Source of the DNA: a virus
Strand: one strand, 5' to 3'
Virus record (IMG/VR): IMGVR_UViG_3300037245_002806
Coordinates: 1 to 64,000 of that record
Length of the DNA: 64,000 nt
Shown here: one piece after another, positions 12,543 through 50,526 of the stretch
How the letters are laid out: each line of letters opens with the position of its first letter
Numbering within the stretch: position 1 is the stretch's first letter
Made by a program: the position numbers and the translations under genes
The notes under the pieces: model-generated
Seen by the model: only the letters and a program-made list of their open reading frames with translations
Databases searched by the model: none
Told to the model about the DNA's origin: nothing

Positions 12543-12612
12543 TTTTTTGCTCCTAGCTTTTGGTGCACCTTTTGCTATAGCTTTTGGTGTAGCTTTTGCT
12601 GTAGCTTTTGCT
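12543..12612 (-). repeat. Tandem AGCAAAAGCTACA-type repeat
   Basis: About five imperfect 12-base units on the minus strand (AAAGCTACAGCA / AAAGCTACACCA) fill the gap between two genes. They stay in frame with the downstream zinc protein, where they would encode KATAKATPKAIAK. The same repeat recurs inside the replication gene at 26.4 kb. Confidence 0.6.
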
Positions 12613-13833: not shown

Positions 13834-15357
13834 CTATCTACCGCATTTATCGTCCATCTTATCGCCACTAATCGCGATAATAAATAATCCGCCTCCGGTA
13901 TCCCCTGGGCTCAGACACTCCGAACAAGAGGTATGGAATTCCCCGCTCGAAGTCCCCACCGTAAAGGGGTGGTTGTGTGGTTTACCGATATCGAAAAACG
14001 TCCTCTTGCTTAAAGGGTTGCTTATTTCCCCAAGCGTGATCGAAGTAATACACGGCGTGTGGCATTTGCCCTTCCATTCGCATTTCTTCTCGTCCCAATG
14101 CTGCTCCTGGCACTCGGGCTCGCCAACGGGCTCGCAAGCGCATTTCCCTTTCCATTGGCATTTCTTGTAGTCCCACGTTTGCTCGTCGCACTCTTGCCTA
14201 TGGTCTGGCTCGCATACGCACGGCCCCTCCCATCTACATTTGGATTCCGACCACGTTTGCTCGGCGCACTCTGGCTCGCCGATGGGCTCGCAGAGGCAAT
14301 CGCCTTCCCACTGGCACGTTTTCTCGTTCCACGTCTGCTCGGCGCATTCGGGCTCGCCCACTGGATCGCACCAACAATCACACGTCTCCGGGTGGAGGTG
14401 CTCGCCGGGGTCGCATTCGAGAGTACACCCGCAATCGCCCACCCACTTGCACTTTTCCGGATCCCATACCTGGATCGGGCATTCCTTTTCGCCGACGGGC
14501 TCGCAGAGGCAATCGCCCACCCACTTGCACTTTTTCGGATCCCACTTCTGCTCGGCGCATTCTGGTTCGCCAACGGGCTCGCACTCGCAGTCGCCAACCC
14601 ACTTACATTTAATCGGATCCCATTTCTGCTCGGCGCATTCGGGCTCGCCGTCGGGCTCGCAGAGGCAACCGCCTACCCAAGAACAACTCTCATAGTCCCA
14701 TTTCTGTTCCGGGCACTCTGGCTCGGTTGTCGGTATGCACTTGCACCCCCACTTACATATTTCGTCCCCGAGCCACTCGCATTCGAGACCTGGCCCCGAC
14801 GGATCTGGCCCTTTGGTGCATTCGTCGGGCTCGCAATCCACTTCGCAAGGCTTTTCGCAAAGCCCGGTACCGCGCTCGTAATAGGCCAAAAGCTCGACCG
14901 CCGTGTAATACGGGATCGTTCGCGGGGTTTGCCTTTGTACCGAATCGCACTGGATCTTGCACATGCCGCCGTCTTTGTTTTTCGGCATCTTTAAACCAAG
15001 GCGCCCGGTGCTCTGACCATTGGCCAAGGATCTCCGGTGGTCGGGCTCTAAGATGATCTGATCCTCGATCTGGCCGGTCGGATCCTCGTAGCAAACGAAA
15101 ACGAAATTCTCGGCTTGCCCCCGGTTGTTTTGGATCTCGGTGTAAACGCTTTCGCCGTTCGTCCAAAACCGCGCCGTTGCTGTTCGGCTGGTGTCCGGTG
15201 GCGTGTTGTTTGTCGCCGGCTGGTTCGGCGCCGGCGTCGTTACCATGCTTCCCGGCTGTACGCTCGGCGCTGTCGGGTTGTTGCTGCTCTCGCAAGAGAA
15301 AAGCACCGCCGCGCCAAAAAGTGCCGGCGCCAAAAAGTACAAAACGATTCGCTTCAT
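13834..15357 (-). CDS. Lipoprotein with tandem Cys-rich repeats
   Basis: 507 residues. Residues 4-22 are a lipoprotein signal (LFSC, C22), followed by a Ser/Thr/Pro-rich stretch and a globular part (about 60-160). From about 200 to 440 there are eight to nine tandem units of about 24 residues with the pattern C-x-CEPxGEPECxEQxWDxxKCxWxGDC, then a C-terminal domain of about 65 residues. The paired cysteines imply disulphide-bonded modules outside the cytoplasm. ATG preceded by GGAGG. A surface protein made by a phage suggests a change of the host surface, such as exclusion or adhesion; this is not shown. No known family recognised. Confidence 0.7.
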   Translation of the reverse strand: MKRIVLYFLAPALFGAAVLFSCESSNNPTAPSVQPGSMVTTPAPNQPATNNTPPDTSRTATARFWTNGESVYTEIQNNRGQAENFVFVCYEDPTGQIEDQIILEPDHRRSLANGQSTGRLGLKMPKNKDGGMCKIQCDSVQRQTPRTIPYYTAVELLAYYERGTGLCEKPCEVDCEPDECTKGPDPSGPGLECEWLGDEICKWGCKCIPTTEPECPEQKWDYESCSWVGGCLCEPDGEPECAEQKWDPIKCKWVGDCECEPVGEPECAEQKWDPKKCKWVGDCLCEPVGEKECPIQVWDPEKCKWVGDCGCTLECDPGEHLHPETCDCWCDPVGEPECAEQTWNEKTCQWEGDCLCEPIGEPECAEQTWSESKCRWEGPCVCEPDHRQECDEQTWDYKKCQWKGKCACEPVGEPECQEQHWDEKKCEWKGKCHTPCITSITLGEISNPLSKRTFFDIGKPHNHPFTVGTSSGEFHTSCSECLSPGDTGGGLFIIAISGDKMDDKCGR

Positions 15358-15369
15358 GGGTCTAACCTC

Positions 15370-15657
15370 CTATTGTGGTTGTGGTTTGGGGGATTTGGCC
15401 TCTATCTGGATCGCACCGTTCTCTAAAATCCGCACCGTCTGGCCGTCTACCAATTGGATCACCATTTGGCCCGGCATGGGTGGCCCCTCCTCAACGCTTC
15501 TGGCGTCTTCGATGGCTACATCTTCGATCCCTACTCCAGTGAGAGCCGTAAATAATCTTTCGCACGGATCCACCCCCCTATGAACCGCGAAAGCTGCTAC
15601 CAAAAGCAAAAGGGTAAAGTTCACGCTCGCCATTCGCTTTTTAATTGTTTCTAACAT
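15370..15657 (-). CDS. Small single-span membrane protein
   Basis: 95 residues; one membrane segment (VNFTLLLLVAAFAV, about 11-24) then an acidic outside part. Placed immediately before the Cys-repeat lipoprotein in the same transcript. ATG with GAGGTC ahead. Function unknown. Confidence 0.6.
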   Translation of the reverse strand: MLETIKKRMASVNFTLLLLVAAFAVHRGVDPCERLFTALTGVGIEDVAIEDARSVEEGPPMPGQMVIQLVDGQTVRILENGAIQIEAKSPKPQPQ

Positions 15658-16076
15658 ATCGAGACCTCTGCCTGGCACTGCTCGCACACGATAAAACCGC
15701 CAATGTCGGGCTCTTTCGGATCGAACGCCTCAACCGTGGTGCACTCCTCGGCGCATGGTACTTTCTCGTAACACTCCGGGCACCCGTGCACGTGCTCCCG
15801 CCGCACTTCTATATCACCACCCGCCCGCGCTTCCAAGTCGATGTGTCGAGACCACCCCGTATGCCCGCAATCGGTGCAATAATATTGCCGTTCATAAAAC
15901 GAATTCCGCTGCCCCCCTTGGAATCGTTTGGGTTGTCGCATCTTCCCGGTAAGCACCACGCGATCACGCTGCCCGCCGCCAACCTGGGCTCGTTTCATAT
16001 ACCCAATGGTTCCCCATTTTTTGCGACACTTCGAACACCGAAAGAAAGTCGGTTGCCCGGTACCTGTCCCGCTCAC
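15651..16076 (-). CDS. Zinc-ribbon protein
   Basis: 141 residues from a GTG overlapping the TGA of the HNH gene. Four CxxC pairs (CSKC, CTDC, CPEC, CEQC). A GATATAGA element is read in frame as GGDIEV. Function unknown. Confidence 0.65.
   Translation of the reverse strand: MSGTGTGQPTFFRCSKCRKKWGTIGYMKRAQVGGGQRDRVVLTGKMRQPKRFQGGQRNSFYERQYYCTDCGHTGWSRHIDLEARAGGDIEVRREHVHGCPECYEKVPCAEECTTVEAFDPKEPDIGGFIVCEQCQAEVSIC
15808..15825 (-). repeat. GATATAGA dispersed element, copy 3
   Basis: Minus strand GGCGGGTGGTGATATAGA inside the zinc-ribbon gene, read as GGDIE. Confidence 0.75.
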
Positions 16077-25250: not shown

Positions 25251-25859
25251 TCATATACCGCTCTCCCCGTCGCCGTACCCCTCGTCGCCCCGGTCCCCCC
25301 TCTCTATCACCGCCCCTTCGTTCGACTCCAGAAACCACACCCGCATGGAGTTAAATAGCGCCATTCGCATCGGGGTGTTGGTAATTGGTACCCCTTTCTT
25401 TAGCTCCACGGTGCTTATTTGCAAGGTGTGCTTGTATTTGCCCTCGTGCCGTTCGTCTTCGCCGAGCCACTCCCACGTATCCCGAAACGGCGAGTCAATG
25501 TGCATCCGAACCCTTACAAACCATTTCCCCTCTTGGATCTTCTTTTCCAGAAACGCCCCTAGCAGTTTATCCCGCTTGGCCTCGTGCTCGATTTGACTCT
25601 CCATCGCCGCGTCGAAAGCGCCGTCCGCTGTGGTTTTGGGATCTACCCACCGGGCAAGCTGCGGCGCCGATGGGAAAAACTTCGATCCGGATTCTTTTAC
25701 GAACCTCCGGATCCCGGCCAAAAGGTCTTCGAAGTCGTGGTCCGCCAAAACGTCGTAATAAACCTGGTAGTTTAGTTCGGTAAACTCCGGGCAGTCGGGA
25801 AACGCCGCTATTAGATACGCCAGCGCCTTATTTATCTGGCTGTTTAGTAGTTTTGCCAT
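25251..25859 (-). CDS. Helicase-loader-like protein (G39P-type N-terminus)
   Basis: 202 residues. The N-terminal 75 residues (AYLIAAFPDCPEF, YYDVLADHDFEDLLAGIRRF, FFPSAPQLARWV) resemble the loader/inhibitor domain of phage SPP1 G39P, which delivers the replicative helicase. The C-terminal region is charged. ATG follows AGGAGG by ten bases and overlaps the DUF1376-like gene by 32 bases. Its place between replication protein and primase-helicase supports the call. Confidence 0.6.
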   Translation of the reverse strand: MAKLLNSQINKALAYLIAAFPDCPEFTELNYQVYYDVLADHDFEDLLAGIRRFVKESGSKFFPSAPQLARWVDPKTTADGAFDAAMESQIEHEAKRDKLLGAFLEKKIQEGKWFVRVRMHIDSPFRDTWEWLGEDERHEGKYKHTLQISTVELKKGVPITNTPMRMALFNSMRVWFLESNEGAVIERGDRGDEGYGDGESGI

Positions 25860-26841
25860 CTTCCAATAACCTCCTTTTCTGCGCTTCCTCGGCTTCGAAT
25901 CGTTTTTGCCGCTCTTCCGCGGCCTTTAGATTTCTGCTGCTCGTGTTATACCGCCCCTTGGCGCCCGTCGTACTCCCCCGGATTCGATCGAGTCGGTCCA
26001 CTTTGGCTTGCTCGCTGTTTAGCCAATTGGTAAAAAACTTGATCGCGCTCTTTTTCCGCCGGCTCCTGGTTTGCGATACGTTCCAATTGCCGGCCCTGGC
26101 TTGCTCGGTGTCGATGTTCAGCTTGGGATAGCTCTTTGCCATGGCATCGGCAAAGTCTGTGGCCATTTCGATCTCTCCGGCAGAATTGAACCAGATCCCC
26201 TTGGATCGATCTGGCGGGGCGGTGCTCGCACCGTCCACCTTCCCCCCCACTCCCCCCCTTTCTACAAAGATCTGATCTTGAATATAATTATTTTCTTTAC
26301 TTGAGGGATCTAAATCTAAATCTATATCTATATCGCTACCCGTTTGCTGGCTTTCGTCGATAGCTTTTGCTGCGTTTTGCTGCGTTTCGTCGATAGCTTT
26401 TGGTGTAGCTTTTGCTGTGGCTTTTGGTGTAGCTTTTGCTACTTCCGGTGGGATTCCTTCCCGGTCTTCGAGTAGCTTTTGCTGCGCCTTTTGCCGCTTC
26501 TTTGCTGTAGCTTTTCCTCCCAGAGCGCCCAACGTTTGCCGCTGCTCAATCATCTTCGCATACTGGCGCCGGCTGTCTTCCTGCACTGGGTGGGTTTGCC
26601 GGCCCGCGCCTTTGGGCTCGAATTTCCCCTTGATCAACTCGACCAACTCGGCAAAGTCTTCGTCGTTTTCGACCTTTAGGAGCTTTCTTACGTGGTCCCA
26701 CTTCGAGGGGATAGATCCTTCCGTCCAGTCGTGGGATAAAATCTTTAGATACATGCCTATCTGGCGGTAATTAAGCAACTGTACCGCCTCGTCTCGCCAG
26801 AATTTATCGGGATAAAATCGAAACCACGGTGGGCTTTTCAT
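25828..26841 (-). CDS. DUF1376-like replication protein
   Basis: 337 residues. N-terminal winged-helix-like DUF1376 signature: WFRFYPDKFWRDEAVQLLNY then IGMYLKILSHDWTEGSIP. The middle is low complexity: KATPKATAKATPKAIDE repeats, then SDIDIDLDLD, a tract typical of phage replication-initiation proteins. A basic helical C-terminus follows. DUF1376 and related proteins act at the origin or recruit the helicase. ATG at 26841 with GAGAGAGG eight bases upstream. Confidence 0.75.
   Translation of the reverse strand: MKSPPWFRFYPDKFWRDEAVQLLNYRQIGMYLKILSHDWTEGSIPSKWDHVRKLLKVENDEDFAELVELIKGKFEPKGAGRQTHPVQEDSRRQYAKMIEQRQTLGALGGKATAKKRQKAQQKLLEDREGIPPEVAKATPKATAKATPKAIDETQQNAAKAIDESQQTGSDIDIDLDLDPSSKENNYIQDQIFVERGGVGGKVDGASTAPPDRSKGIWFNSAGEIEMATDFADAMAKSYPKLNIDTEQARAGNWNVSQTRSRRKKSAIKFFTNWLNSEQAKVDRLDRIRGSTTGAKGRYNTSSRNLKAAEERQKRFEAEEAQKRRLLEDGKTTKQPDK
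26345..26440 (-). repeat. AGCAAAAGCTACA-type repeat inside replication gene
   Basis: Imperfect 12-base units on the minus strand encode KATPKATAKATPKA. Very similar units fill the gap at 12543-12612, 14 kb away. Confidence 0.55.
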
Positions 26842-30796: not shown

Positions 30797-31045
30797 CTAG
30801 CCTGCGGGGTCGGTTGTTACGGCTTGGTTTGGTGCTACGTACCCCTCGACCGGGGCGAGCTTTCCGGCGTGTACTTGCATCTGTACCCACTCTCGCAAGA
30901 TGTATCGGATCAACTCTTTCATCGGTCGATCCTCCACCTTGGCCGCCTGCCTTAACATGTCGTATTCGCCTTGCTCTACTTCGCTGTAGACTTTTTTCGG
31001 CGAAAACATGCTATTAGCACGGGGCATTGTCATTGCTTTGCCCAT
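30797..31045 (-). CDS. Putative small DNA-binding protein
   Basis: 82 residues; ATG preceded by AGGAGG. KVYSEVEQGEYDMLRQAAKV then MKELIRYILREWVQ suggests a ribbon-helix-helix-like arrangement. First gene before exonuclease/recT; may regulate them. Function inferred only from pattern. Confidence 0.5.
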   Translation of the reverse strand: MGKAMTMPRANSMFSPKKVYSEVEQGEYDMLRQAAKVEDRPMKELIRYILREWVQMQVHAGKLAPVEGYVAPNQAVTTDPAG

Positions 31046-45029: not shown

Positions 45030-45057
45030 GGGGGGCGAAAGCCCCCCACCTTCCTTT
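45030..45057 (+). terminator. GNRA-loop terminator
   Basis: GGGGGGC GAAA GCCCCCC then ACCTTCCTTTT, 12 bases after the 45017 stop. Confidence 0.65.
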
Positions 45058-45075: not shown

Positions 45076-45414
45076 CCTCTGCGAACGTCGCCTGATTAGG
45101 GGTGTTCGACTTCGCACACCTGGCCGGCGTTTCGAGGTGCTCCCTCTGCGAGCCGATCCGGTGCCCGCCTCTGCGAGCGATCCGGGGTGGCCCCTCTGCG
45201 AGCAAAAATGGGGTGTTCGACTTCGCACACCTGGCCGACATTTCACGTGGTCCCCTCTGCGAGCGTTTCGAGGTGGTCCCTCTGCGAGCCGATCCGGGGT
45301 GTTCGACTTCGCACACTATCTACGTCGATCCGGCGGTGCTCCTCTGCGAGCGTTTTAGGGGTGTCCGTCTTCGCACACCTGGCCGGCGTTTTAGGGGTGT
45401 TCGACTTCGCACAC
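45076..45414. repeat. Non-coding array of two alternating short repeats
   Basis: Five copies of GTGTTCGACTTCGCACAC (starting 45101, 45212, 45298, 45360 with two changes, 45396), each able to fold as a GTGTTCG/CGCACAC hairpin with one mismatch, and seven copies of CCTCTGCGAGC (near 45076, 45143, 45168, 45193, 45254, 45279, 45341). Spacers repeat fragments such as GGCCGGCGTTT and GATCCGG. No gene fits. Candidate iteron/centromere-like DNA or a multi-hairpin RNA. Confidence 0.7.
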
Positions 45415-45447
45415 CTCAACCTACCACATAATAAATGTATTTTATGC

Positions 45448-45476
45448 TTGCCTTATCTACGGGGTTTTGGTACTAT
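45448..45476 (+). promoter_or_regulatory. Early leaderless promoter, copy 11
   Basis: TTGCCT, 17 bases, TACTAT, ATACGT, ATG. The +1 ATG starts MEVGENG, a 7-codon ORF (45483-45506) whose stop lies just inside the next gene. Confidence 0.7.
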
Positions 45477-45498: not shown

Positions 45499-45675
45499 AT
45501 GGTTAAAGTTTTTCTCTGTTGGTTCGAAAACGGCCAATTCGCCGAGTGTAGGGCGCGAAGTGCCGAATCCGCCAAATCGTTTGTAAACTCCTATTACAAG
45601 CGCCCGGTGGTAAGCGTCGAGTTGACCACCGAATACCCTGCGGCGCTCCATGAGGCGCTCTGGAGTGCGGTTTAG
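45499..45675 (+). CDS. Small hypothetical protein
   Basis: 58 residues (MVKVFLCWFENGQFAECRA), with GGAGGTTGGAG upstream; overlaps the leaderless 7-codon ORF. Alpha/beta. Ends in TAGTG overlap with the HD gene. Confidence 0.6.
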   Translation: MVKVFLCWFENGQFAECRARSAESAKSFVNSYYKRPVVSVELTTEYPAALHEALWSAV

Positions 45676-46214
45676 TGCGCATCCAATGCTTTTACTGCCA
45701 AGGAAGTGGAACCACCGCCCTCAATGCCTCGGGGATCTGCCACCGGTGCGATGGGATTGGTACCTTGGACGGTGAGCACCCGGTGGCCTACGCCTACCTT
45801 TTTGCGAAGGATTGCCACGCCGGGCAAACGGATGACGACGGAAAGGATTACCTCGAAGCCCACTGCCGCCACGTCTTCGAGATTGTCCGCGCCGCGGCCC
45901 CTGAGGATACCGCGCTCCATGCCGCTGCTTTCCTGCACGATGTGATCGAGGATACCGAGCACGACTATAGCGAGATCCATGCCGAATTCGGCCAGGACGT
46001 CGCCGATTTGGTGCACGAAGTAACGCATGAGGGCCAGAAGGATTCCAAAGGGTTCTACTTTCCGCGGCTGCGGACCCCCAGAGGGATCCAGCTAAAATTC
46101 GCCGATAGGCTCTCGAATCTATCCCGTATGGAGCCGTGGAGCGAAAGGCGGGTCAACCACTACTTGCACAACTCTCGTTTCTGGCGTACCGGGAACGAAA
46201 AGAGGTTTCGATAA
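45675..46214 (+). CDS. HD-domain (RelA/SpoT-type) hydrolase with zinc-finger N-terminus
   Basis: 179 residues from GTG (TAGTG overlap). Residues 80-150 carry the HD metal site of (p)ppGpp hydrolases: LHAAAFLHDVIEDTEHDY (H82, H88, D89, E92, D93) and KFADRLSNLSRM (D144). The N-terminus has CFYCQGSG and CHRCDGIG, DnaJ-like zinc pairs, an unusual addition. Likely removes a pyrophosphate from alarmones or related nucleotides; the N-terminal cysteines may sense or bind a partner. Confidence 0.8.
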   Translation: MRIQCFYCQGSGTTALNASGICHRCDGIGTLDGEHPVAYAYLFAKDCHAGQTDDDGKDYLEAHCRHVFEIVRAAAPEDTALHAAAFLHDVIEDTEHDYSEIHAEFGQDVADLVHEVTHEGQKDSKGFYFPRLRTPRGIQLKFADRLSNLSRMEPWSERRVNHYLHNSRFWRTGNEKRFR

Positions 46215-46978
46215 TGCCGACACTGACGATTGATCCTAACCTACGCGGTATCCTTGCCAATATGGTCTGGCGAGAAAATGCCGCTAAGATCGTGGCGAAG
46301 CTCGACCGCCCCACCTACGTAAAGATCAACAAGATTTTAGAGTGCCTCGGGGGAAAATGGGATCGGTCGCTCCAAGCGCACATTTTCGAAGGGGAAGCCC
46401 GCGAAGCGGTGGAGGATGCCGCCGAGACCGGCACATACATTGACTGGAAGCGGCAAAACGAATTCTTTGAAACCCCCGAGCCCCTTGCCTGCCGTATGCT
46501 CGACCTTGCCGACGTCGCCCCCAATTTTACCGTTCTGGAGCCCTCCGCGGGGAAAGGCGCCATCGTAAAGCCGGCACTGCAATTCGGCGCCACGGTGCTC
46601 GCTGTCGAGCAATTCGAGCCCTATGCCAAAGTGATCGCCGGCTTGGCTCCGGACGGTTTCGACAGGCTCAAGGTGGCGGTGCTCGATTTCCTTGCCTTTA
46701 AACCTACTCCGGTTTTCGATGCCGTGGTAATGAACCCGCCTTTTAAAACCGACGTCTACCACGTCGCCTATGCTGCCCGCTTTCTTCGCCCCGGCGGAAA
46801 GCTGGTCTCGGTGATGGGGCCAGGTTGGACGTTTCGAACCGCGGCGATCTCCGAACGTTTCCGATATTGGGTTACCACCATGGGCGCAAAATGGGAAAAG
46901 CTGCCAGAGAAGTCTTTTTCCTCGTCCGGTACCTATGTCCATTCCGGGTTGCTTACGATGCAAAGGGCCGACCCGTGA
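46214..46978 (+). CDS. SAM-dependent adenine-type methyltransferase
   Basis: 254 residues; ATG overlaps the previous TAA (TAATG). VLEPSAGKGAIVKPAL (SAM loop, 108-115) and VVMNPPFKTDVYH (catalytic NPPF, 174-177) define the family; the helical N-terminus may recognise DNA. Second methylase in the window after the Dam-type enzyme. Confidence 0.85.
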   Translation: MPTLTIDPNLRGILANMVWRENAAKIVAKLDRPTYVKINKILECLGGKWDRSLQAHIFEGEAREAVEDAAETGTYIDWKRQNEFFETPEPLACRMLDLADVAPNFTVLEPSAGKGAIVKPALQFGATVLAVEQFEPYAKVIAGLAPDGFDRLKVAVLDFLAFKPTPVFDAVVMNPPFKTDVYHVAYAARFLRPGGKLVSVMGPGWTFRTAAISERFRYWVTTMGAKWEKLPEKSFSSSGTYVHSGLLTMQRADP

Positions 46979-47418
46979 CCGAATACCGAAAGCGGGATCG
47001 CTTCGCGCTCGAAGGCCGGGAACTGTTTTTCAGGGAGGAAAATGTGAAAAACGAAAGCGAGATCAAGTGCTCGAAACATTGTGGCCGCGGCTGCACCCGG
47101 AAAGAATACGAAACCGCGGAGAAAGGCGCCCTCAAACTCGCCCGCCGGCTTGGCAAAGGGTGGAAACCCGACGTTTGGGAAAATCTCGGCTGGCACTATG
47201 CCGCCCGCCGCGGTGGAGTGCGAGTGCACCCACATCCTACCGGCCCGCCCGGTTTTACCGCTTACCTTAATTACCAAAAGAGCCCCGGTGGTCGGTGGGT
47301 TGCCTCTGCGAGCACCCCCCAGAAGGCCATTACCGAAGCTCTGGCGATTGCGAGAATGGAGCGAGACGAAATCGCCAAGGCCGTTCGAAAAATCGAGCAA
47401 TATTTAGAGGAAGATTAA
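46975..47418 (+). CDS. Hypothetical protein
   Basis: 147 residues from GTG overlapping the methylase stop. CSKHCGRGCTRKEYETAEKG and YAARRGGVRVHPH suggest nucleic-acid contact. Function unknown. Confidence 0.6.
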   Translation: MTEYRKRDRFALEGRELFFREENVKNESEIKCSKHCGRGCTRKEYETAEKGALKLARRLGKGWKPDVWENLGWHYAARRGGVRVHPHPTGPPGFTAYLNYQKSPGGRWVASASTPQKAITEALAIARMERDEIAKAVRKIEQYLEED

Positions 47419-48616: not shown

Positions 48617-50526
48617 TTCCTACCAGCTTTCCCGGTGGTCCGGAGCACAAAGGAAGCCCTTTTCCTTTTCGGTGCGTTTGCTGTGATCCTGGTAAGCTCC
48701 CAGGTTTCCCGCGATGGCCCCCCAGGATTAAAATCCCACCAAGTGAAAGCCCCTGGTTCCCCGATGGCCGTTGGCGCCGCCAAGGCGTTTGGCGAAATCG
48801 TGATCGCCCCGATGGAAACCGCCGGCTGGCCAATGGCCGTTGGCGCCTCTAACAAAACAGGATCTATTCCGTACCCTCCGCCCGGCTGCCCAATGGCCGT
48901 TGGGGCTGCGAGAGCGTTAGGCTCAATGGTCATCGAGCTAACACCAACCCCAGGGGCCGGTATTGCCGTGGGAGCCTCTAAGGCGCTCGGTGAGAGCGTT
49001 ACACTACCAACGGTAATCGCGGGTTGCCCAATAGCGGTTGGTGCCTCCAAAGCATCCGGGGAAATGGTGATCGCGCCAACGGTAACCGCGGGTTGCCCAA
49101 TAGCGGTTGGTGCCGCCAAGGCGTTTGGCGCGATCGTCGCCGCGCCGGTGGTAACCGTAGGTTGCCCGATGGCCGTTGGCGCTTCCAAGGGATCCGGCGA
49201 AATCGTAGCCCCGCCGGCGGTAATCGCGGGTTGCCCAATTGCCGTCGGCGCTTCCAAAGCGTCCGGGGAAACGGTAACCGGGCCGGTGGTAACCGCGGGT
49301 TGCCCAATAGCGGTTGGTGCCTCCAAGGCGTTTGGCGCAATCGTAGCCCCGCCGGCGGTAACCGTGGGTTGCCCGATGGCCGTTGGCGCTTCCAAGGCGT
49401 TTGGCGCGATCGTAACGGCGCCGGCGGTAACCGTCGGCTGCCCGATTGCCGTTGGCGCTTCCAAGGCGTTTGGCGCGATCGTAACGGCGCCGGCGTCAAC
49501 CGTAGGTTGCCCGATGGCCGTTGGCGCCGCCAAAGCATTCGGGGAAATGGTAACCGGGCCGGTGGTAACCGTCGGCTGTCCAATTGCCGTTGGTGCCGCC
49601 AAGGCGTCGGGGGAAATGGTGATCGAGGTGGTAACCGCCGGCTGCCCGATAGCCGTTGGCGCCGCCAAGGGATCCGGGATCGCGCCAACCGGGCCGACTG
49701 CGATCAATGGTTCCCCGATAGCGGTGGGCGCCGCCAAGGCGCTTGGCGCAATCGTAACCGGGCCGGTGGTAACCGTAGGTTGCCCAATTGCCGTCGGCGC
49801 TTCCAAAGCATTCGGGGAAATGGTTTGATCGCCCGGCCCTGCTGGCGTTAGCCTCCCGCTTACATCGTCGGTACAAATGCCTTTTGGATTTGTTTCGACG
49901 CCACCTATCCCCTGGCTTGTTTTTATGGTGGATTCGAACTGCCCGGACTGTAGATAGAGCTTATCAAACGATTCACCGATCCAAGGGGTGTTTGTTCCAT
50001 CCCAAGAAATATCTCTGGGATTGGCATCGACGGTAATTACGACTAGGCTTGTTTTTAAAGTTGTGGAAAATTGACCACTTTGGAGATAAAGTTTTTTGGC
50101 CTGGTTCCCCGTCCAGGGAGAATTTGTGCCGTCGAAAGATATGCCTTGCAGAACATTATCCACACCGCCAACGGCCAGGCTCGTTTTTACTGTTGCGGTG
50201 ATTTGGCCGCTTTGGACGTAAAGTTTATCTCCGGTATCCGCGCACCAAGGCGTGTTTTCCCCATCCCAAGAAATGCCGGTTGGGCTAAAACCAACTCGGG
50301 CAAAGCTGGTTTTTACAACGGAACTAAACTGGCCACTCTGTAGAAAGAGCTTTTCGAACCAATTCCCGCACCATGGCGTATCTGTCCCGTCGTAAGATAT
50401 GCCGCTCGACCAACCGTCTTTGGTGTTAATCGACTGGCTGGTTTTTAAGGTGGAGGTAAACTGACCGGACGTTAGATAGAGCTTGTCGCCCTGTGTGCCT
50501 ACCCAAGGTGTTGCCGTCGTCGCCAT
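48613..50526 (-). CDS. Repeat-rich tail fibre protein
   Basis: 637 residues. Residues 1-215 contain five units of about 42 residues (GISWDGTNTPW...DKLYLQSGQFSTTLKTS), resembling a beta-propeller. Residues about 225-600 contain some 16 units of about 23 residues based on ALEAPTAIGQPxVTTGPVTISP, a thin-fibre type repeat. The C-terminus is compact and basic. Repeat number could change by recombination. Probable receptor-binding or fibre role. Confidence 0.75.
   Translation of the reverse strand: MATTATPWVGTQGDKLYLTSGQFTSTLKTSQSINTKDGWSSGISYDGTDTPWCGNWFEKLFLQSGQFSSVVKTSFARVGFSPTGISWDGENTPWCADTGDKLYVQSGQITATVKTSLAVGGVDNVLQGISFDGTNSPWTGNQAKKLYLQSGQFSTTLKTSLVVITVDANPRDISWDGTNTPWIGESFDKLYLQSGQFESTIKTSQGIGGVETNPKGICTDDVSGRLTPAGPGDQTISPNALEAPTAIGQPTVTTGPVTIAPSALAAPTAIGEPLIAVGPVGAIPDPLAAPTAIGQPAVTTSITISPDALAAPTAIGQPTVTTGPVTISPNALAAPTAIGQPTVDAGAVTIAPNALEAPTAIGQPTVTAGAVTIAPNALEAPTAIGQPTVTAGGATIAPNALEAPTAIGQPAVTTGPVTVSPDALEAPTAIGQPAITAGGATISPDPLEAPTAIGQPTVTTGAATIAPNALAAPTAIGQPAVTVGAITISPDALEAPTAIGQPAITVGSVTLSPSALEAPTAIPAPGVGVSSMTIEPNALAAPTAIGQPGGGYGIDPVLLEAPTAIGQPAVSIGAITISPNALAAPTAIGEPGAFTWWDFNPGGPSRETWELTRITANAPKRKRASFVLRTTGKAGRK

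Follow-up and report, generated by a model that had tools for sequence, protein, structure and literature searches.

A twelve-site array of two short repeat types ahead of a small operon in a phage genome

In the genome of an uncultured phage, two early operons are separated by an array of twelve short sites, which fall into two kinds (five A sites and seven B sites, all on the + strand) and extend over positions 45076-45414. We tentatively interpret the array as a non-coding, cis-acting DNA element on which one or two sequence-specific proteins would dock, probably to regulate the adjacent operon.

The window, i.e. the whole stretch of DNA analyzed (64,000 nucleotides), corresponds to bases 1-64000 of a viral record of 99,905 bases. 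The two ends of the record have 24 bases in common, which makes it probable that the assembly is circular and complete. The phage carries genes for terminase, portal, capsid and tail proteins, a primase-helicase, RecE- and RecT-like proteins and a DNA helicase. Most of the genes are directed leftward, and the array lies inside a block of small rightward operons (approx. 39.8-47.9 kb).

No close relative of the phage was found in the phage collection, in which the best protein matches were far under 60% identity. A 13.7-kb contig is 100% identical to the phage and covers structural genes only; the other relatives were distant (at most 41%), and the methyltransferase and the primase-helicase were without relatives in IMG/VR. 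In the host search, the capsid relatives in GTDB were distant matches only, spread over several phyla, and therefore permitted no host assignment.

Composition and conservation of the array

The A site, GTGTTCGACTTCGCACAC, is present in four exact copies and in one copy with two substitutions, while the B site, CCTCTGCGAGC, is present in six exact copies and in one with a single substitution (Table 1). The five A and seven B units noticed in an earlier sequence-only reading were thus borne out, together with their positions. That reading had also described the units as alternating, which is not strictly the case (the order is BABBBABBABAA), and their spacing as irregular (24-111 bases), which proved to be wrong: the distance between neighboring sites is set by the site type. 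Measured from start to start, it is 25, 25 and 25 from B to B, 20, 20 and 20 from B to A (26 after the degenerate first B), 41, 41 and 42 from A to B, and 36 from A to A. There are two unit lengths, of approx. 25 bp (B) and approx. 36 bp (A), and a GGTG box stands ahead of nearly each core (the array contains ten such boxes, where approximately two would be expected).

Table 1. Sites of the array and neighboring features (positions in the window).
Feature	Position	Strand	Remarks
Intrinsic-terminator-like hairpin	45030-45047	+	End of upstream operon; pattern scan; weak T tract
B site 1	45076-45086	+	CCTCTGCGAAC; one substitution
A site 1	45102-45119	+	GTGTTCGACTTCGCACAC; imperfect palindrome
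B site 2	45143-45153	+	CCTCTGCGAGC
B site 3	45168-45178	+	
B site 4	45193-45203	+	
A site 2	45213-45230	+	
B site 5	45254-45264	+	
B site 6	45279-45289	+	
A site 3	45299-45316	+	
B site 7	45341-45351	+	
A site 4	45361-45378	+	GTGTCCGTCTTCGCACAC; two substitutions
A site 5	45397-45414	+	
AT-rich stretch	45421-45447		Approx. 74% A+T; gap between array and promoter
Promoter-like site	45448-45476	+	TTGCCT-17-TACTAT, TG before TACTAT; by eye; below the scan's detection
58-codon ORF	45499-45675	+	First gene downstream; no family found
HD-domain phosphohydrolase gene	45675-46214	+	
Methyltransferase-like gene	46214-46978	+	

The array is real, and chance is excluded as its source. By chance, the rest of the genome would be expected to contain approximately 5e-7 exact copies of A and 0.03 of B, and 19 of the 52 clustered 9-mers found genome-wide are located in the array, while ten simulated genomes contained none. 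Clusters of A and B occur at 45 kb and nowhere else in the genome. As the longest exact repeat in the array is 28 nt, a short-read misassembly is unlikely.

Single exact B sites were also detected outside the array, at 14286, 14499 and 14655 (− strand), at 47303 (+ strand) and at approx. 6586 (+ strand) of another piece (L006) of the same record. These sites fall in three genes, and synonymous shuffles reach an average of 0.3 genes (0 of 150 reach three), an excess that was noticed post hoc and in which three of the five outlying copies stem from the internal repeat of one gene.

Comparison of the copies, which judges conservation within one array and not between phages, revealed an identity of 96% for the A core and 97% for the B core (100% among six B sites). 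In contrast, the connectors, together with 9 nt on each side of the cores, are only about 26-54% identical, and the cores therefore appear to be constrained, although the comparison is partly circular because the cores were picked for looking conserved. Such unequal drift argues against plain tandem duplication, in which all parts would drift alike, and the retention of 11-18 unchanged positions in otherwise drifted units is not expected under neutral drift after duplication.

Several connector types (e.g. CGATCCGG, GTTTCGAG and GTTTTAGG) recur beside different cores, indicating that recombination has also rearranged the array. Homogenization or gene conversion could be responsible in part for the conservation observed within it. 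The recurring connectors would also fit a functionless tandem repeat generated by replication slippage, as would the constant unit lengths, a visible 111-bp higher-order duplication and the fact that the searches returned no relative; this origin is nevertheless rather improbable, since the connectors have drifted to roughly random identity while the cores have not. A coding repeat was ruled out, as neither unit length is divisible by three and stop codons occur in all frames.

The sequence-only reading had proposed a search for the units in related phages. This was run over phage, plasmid, IMG/VR and GTDB collections and yielded no relative: exact and degenerate patterns gave nothing, or chance and coding matches only, in IMG/VR, and the searches of the GTDB genomes and of the phage and plasmid collections were empty. 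The array thus appears to be without a known counterpart in public collections, although little can be concluded about its uniqueness, since the phage is itself nearly free of relatives in them and near-identical records may be missing.

The array as a proposed docking site next to the downstream operon

From the anatomy of the array we infer that proteins would bind these sites and act on the DNA, and, in a further step based on its position, that the downstream promoter would be their target. Of the sequence-only reading, the general notion that protein binds to a repeated site still stands. The twelve sites of the same orientation would be docked by one or two proteins encoded by the phage or by its host. 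A would be bound by a dimer, whereas the partner of B would be either another protein or the A-binding one in a different mode. In the fixed register of the array, in which the two unit lengths differ by about one helical turn, neighboring proteins could touch each other and build a single nucleoprotein filament or loop. The operon under control would be composed of the small ORF, the HD phosphohydrolase gene and the methyltransferase gene.

Control of this operon is the most likely job of the array, given its position in the gap from the upstream terminator to the downstream promoter and the distance of 33 bp between the end of the last A site and the −35 box. Like a multi-site operator, the array has short, constrained sites that are non-coding and close to a promoter (here recognized by eye). 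Against docking, the sites end 33 bp before the −35 box and none overlaps the promoter, and twelve sites are many for a simple operator.

The array had been described as following a terminator and preceding an early promoter. The former was confirmed by the pattern of the hairpin, whereas the latter can be upheld only as a candidate that escaped the scan because of its weakness. Three small operons of the same block have strong promoters of the form TTGACA-17-TATATT, each of them stronger than this candidate.

Temperate actinophages contain stoperators, asymmetric sites of one orientation that are scattered through the genome. The array resembles these multi-site operators in that asymmetric sites recur with a common orientation close to a promoter; however, it forms a single cluster, and palindromic sites are mixed into it. 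A small protein encoded at 30797-31045 (− strand) gave a weak match to Arc-like repressors (E 0.0027) and may be considered a candidate regulator for a repeated operator, the sole one noticed.

It is improbable, though conceivable, that the array represents a novel type of assembly site for phage nucleoprotein, with palindromic and asymmetric sites interleaved in a fixed register (units of 25 and 36 bp, which differ by one helical turn), two partner proteins that read them, and a role in DNA maintenance or host takeover in a lineage that has no close known relatives. If docking were confirmed, the array would provide a 340-bp DNA bait for catching a DNA-binding protein of a lineage without a cultured close relative, as well as a test case for two site types in fixed register that build one complex.

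RNA folding and replication

The A site is an imperfect palindrome with dyad symmetry at 14 of 18 positions, a level met by 0.17% of the genomic 18-mers (16 of 20 over 20 bp, a level met by 0.06% of the genomic 20-mers), whereas the 11-bp B site is asymmetric and non-palindromic. As RNA of the + strand, the A copies would fold into hairpins with energies of −6.3 to −9.0 kcal/mol, and their 7-8 bp stem is foldable on either strand. Five of the units had been called hairpin-forming, which holds true for A; the B units have no stem beyond that of shuffled sequences. Folding of the whole region was likewise not beyond the shuffles (z of +1.65 and −0.52), the + strand being worse than most of them and the − strand approximately average.

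These features bear on the possibility that the array specifies a non-coding RNA in which hairpins and linear motifs are repeated, and which would act as a sponge, a decoy, an antitoxin repeat or a signal for antitermination. The hairpin of A, which also counts against protein docking, and the alternation of hairpin and linear motif, reminiscent of boxA/boxB, are consistent with such an RNA, as is the location of both substitutions of A site 4 outside the RNA stem. On the other hand, B has no conserved fold, the unpaired positions of A are conserved as well, a terminator lies ahead of the array, and promoter scans revealed no promoter that would transcribe it by itself. The region had no Rfam match, even at a relaxed threshold, and no tRNA or known RNA was detected. 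An RNA function, including the multi-hairpin sponge proposed earlier, is thus unlikely, and a role as DNA is favored.

In type III toxin-antitoxin systems, an operon is preceded by tandem repeats with a length of 25-40 bp, a layout that the array shares. It differs from them in having two unit lengths and no promoter ahead of it, and no toxin family is represented among the genes that follow.

A replication element is a further alternative to which we assign a low probability. The array could consist of iterons bound by an initiator, with the AT-rich stretch (Table 1) as the unwinding element, or could be a late-origin or fork-barrier site. Its form agrees with the replication iterons suggested by the sequence-only reading, since such origins usually consist of palindromic iterons that adjoin an AT-rich segment within a non-coding gap, and the phage has a primase-helicase, RecE/RecT-like proteins and a weak helicase-loader match. 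In a lambda-type origin, several imperfect palindromes of approx. 18-20 bp likewise lie beside an AT-rich stretch; in contrast, the array has two site types and is not located in an initiator gene. In addition, comparable AT-rich stretches occur ahead of other promoters in the region.

The GC-skew check proposed for locating an origin showed no switch at the array. Whichever way the genes run, the + strand shows an excess of C at their fourfold-degenerate sites over the whole genome, with no switch anywhere, and the array therefore lacks the sign expected of a bidirectional origin, to which the test speaks. This same-sign skew suggests one-directional replication, which leaves the position of the origin unlocated by this test.

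A better candidate is provided by a different repeat family, AGCTTTTGSTG, found at 26362-26515 inside a gene with a weak DUF1376 match (25828-26841, − strand), after which come the gene with the weak helicase-loader match and, next, that of the primase-helicase. Beside these repeats, in an AT-rich segment at 26259-26340, is the 40-mer with the lowest GC content in the genome (20% GC, at 26259). Repeats of this family are present again 13.8 kb away, at 12545-12612, where the DNA is non-coding and protein sequence is therefore no explanation for them.

In Bacillus phage SPP1, oriL consists of direct repeats and an AT-rich element inside gene 38, whereas oriR, with the same kind of elements, is intergenic, lies in non-coding DNA between transcription signals about 13 kb from oriL, and shares with it repeats that are bound in both origins by gp38 (PMC6316719). 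Like these origins, the array is a cluster of direct repeats close to AT-rich DNA, and like oriR it is located in an intergenic, non-coding stretch. However, the SPP1 repeats are common to both origins, while the A/B cluster occurs at one place only, and the SPP1 layout is better matched by the AGCTTTTGSTG family.

By this analogy, the repeats at 26.3 kb and 12.6 kb are a probable SPP1-style pair of replication origins, with the DUF1376-like gene as the likely initiator gene. No cluster of A and B sites occurs in or near this gene, and since the A and B units are unrelated to the AGCTTTTGSTG repeats, the array is probably not the site of the initiator. An SPP1-like origin pair makes the question of replication directly testable through sequencing coverage.

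ParB-like proteins and other identities

It is very unlikely that the array is a centromere-like partition site of a phage able to persist as a plasmid. Some known partition sites are clusters of short sites of two kinds (in P1 parS, A and B boxes form one cluster), and a ParB-like protein is encoded at 1837-2742 (− strand). However, this protein matches only the N-terminal domain (ParB_N), both in Pfam and among solved structures, without a match to the parS-binding domain. Among the proteins scanned, a set that left some small ORFs outside, there was no ParA-type partner, integrase or plasmid Rep, which further weakens the earlier proposal of a centromere for the ParB-like gene. The structures predicted for the ParB-like and loader-like proteins had a confidence too low for use.

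A second, weaker ParB_N match adjoins a PAPS-reductase-like gene near the terminase (14379-14888 and 14866-15933, respectively, both on the − strand, of piece L007 of the same record). The ParB_N-like proteins flank the terminase end of the circular map, which suggests packaging or DNA modification rather than partition. Across the circular junction, the pair and the PAPS-reductase-like protein may form a DNA-modification or packaging cluster.

Other identities were rejected as well. A CRISPR array is incompatible with two repeat types, recurring connectors and the lack of a CRISPR match in Rfam; the sequence-only reading had correctly set the array apart from CRISPR, but for the wrong reason, that of irregular spacing. 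Mimicry of a type I-E CRISPR repeat was considered because some B units start, by eye, with GTGCTCCC, a part that is not conserved. A packaging site was dismissed on the location of the terminase large subunit gene (98.1-99.5 kb) and of a weak small-subunit candidate (10.0-10.7 kb). Elsewhere in the window, a tail-protein gene (49011-49821, − strand) contains approximately twelve coding repeats of 69 bp.
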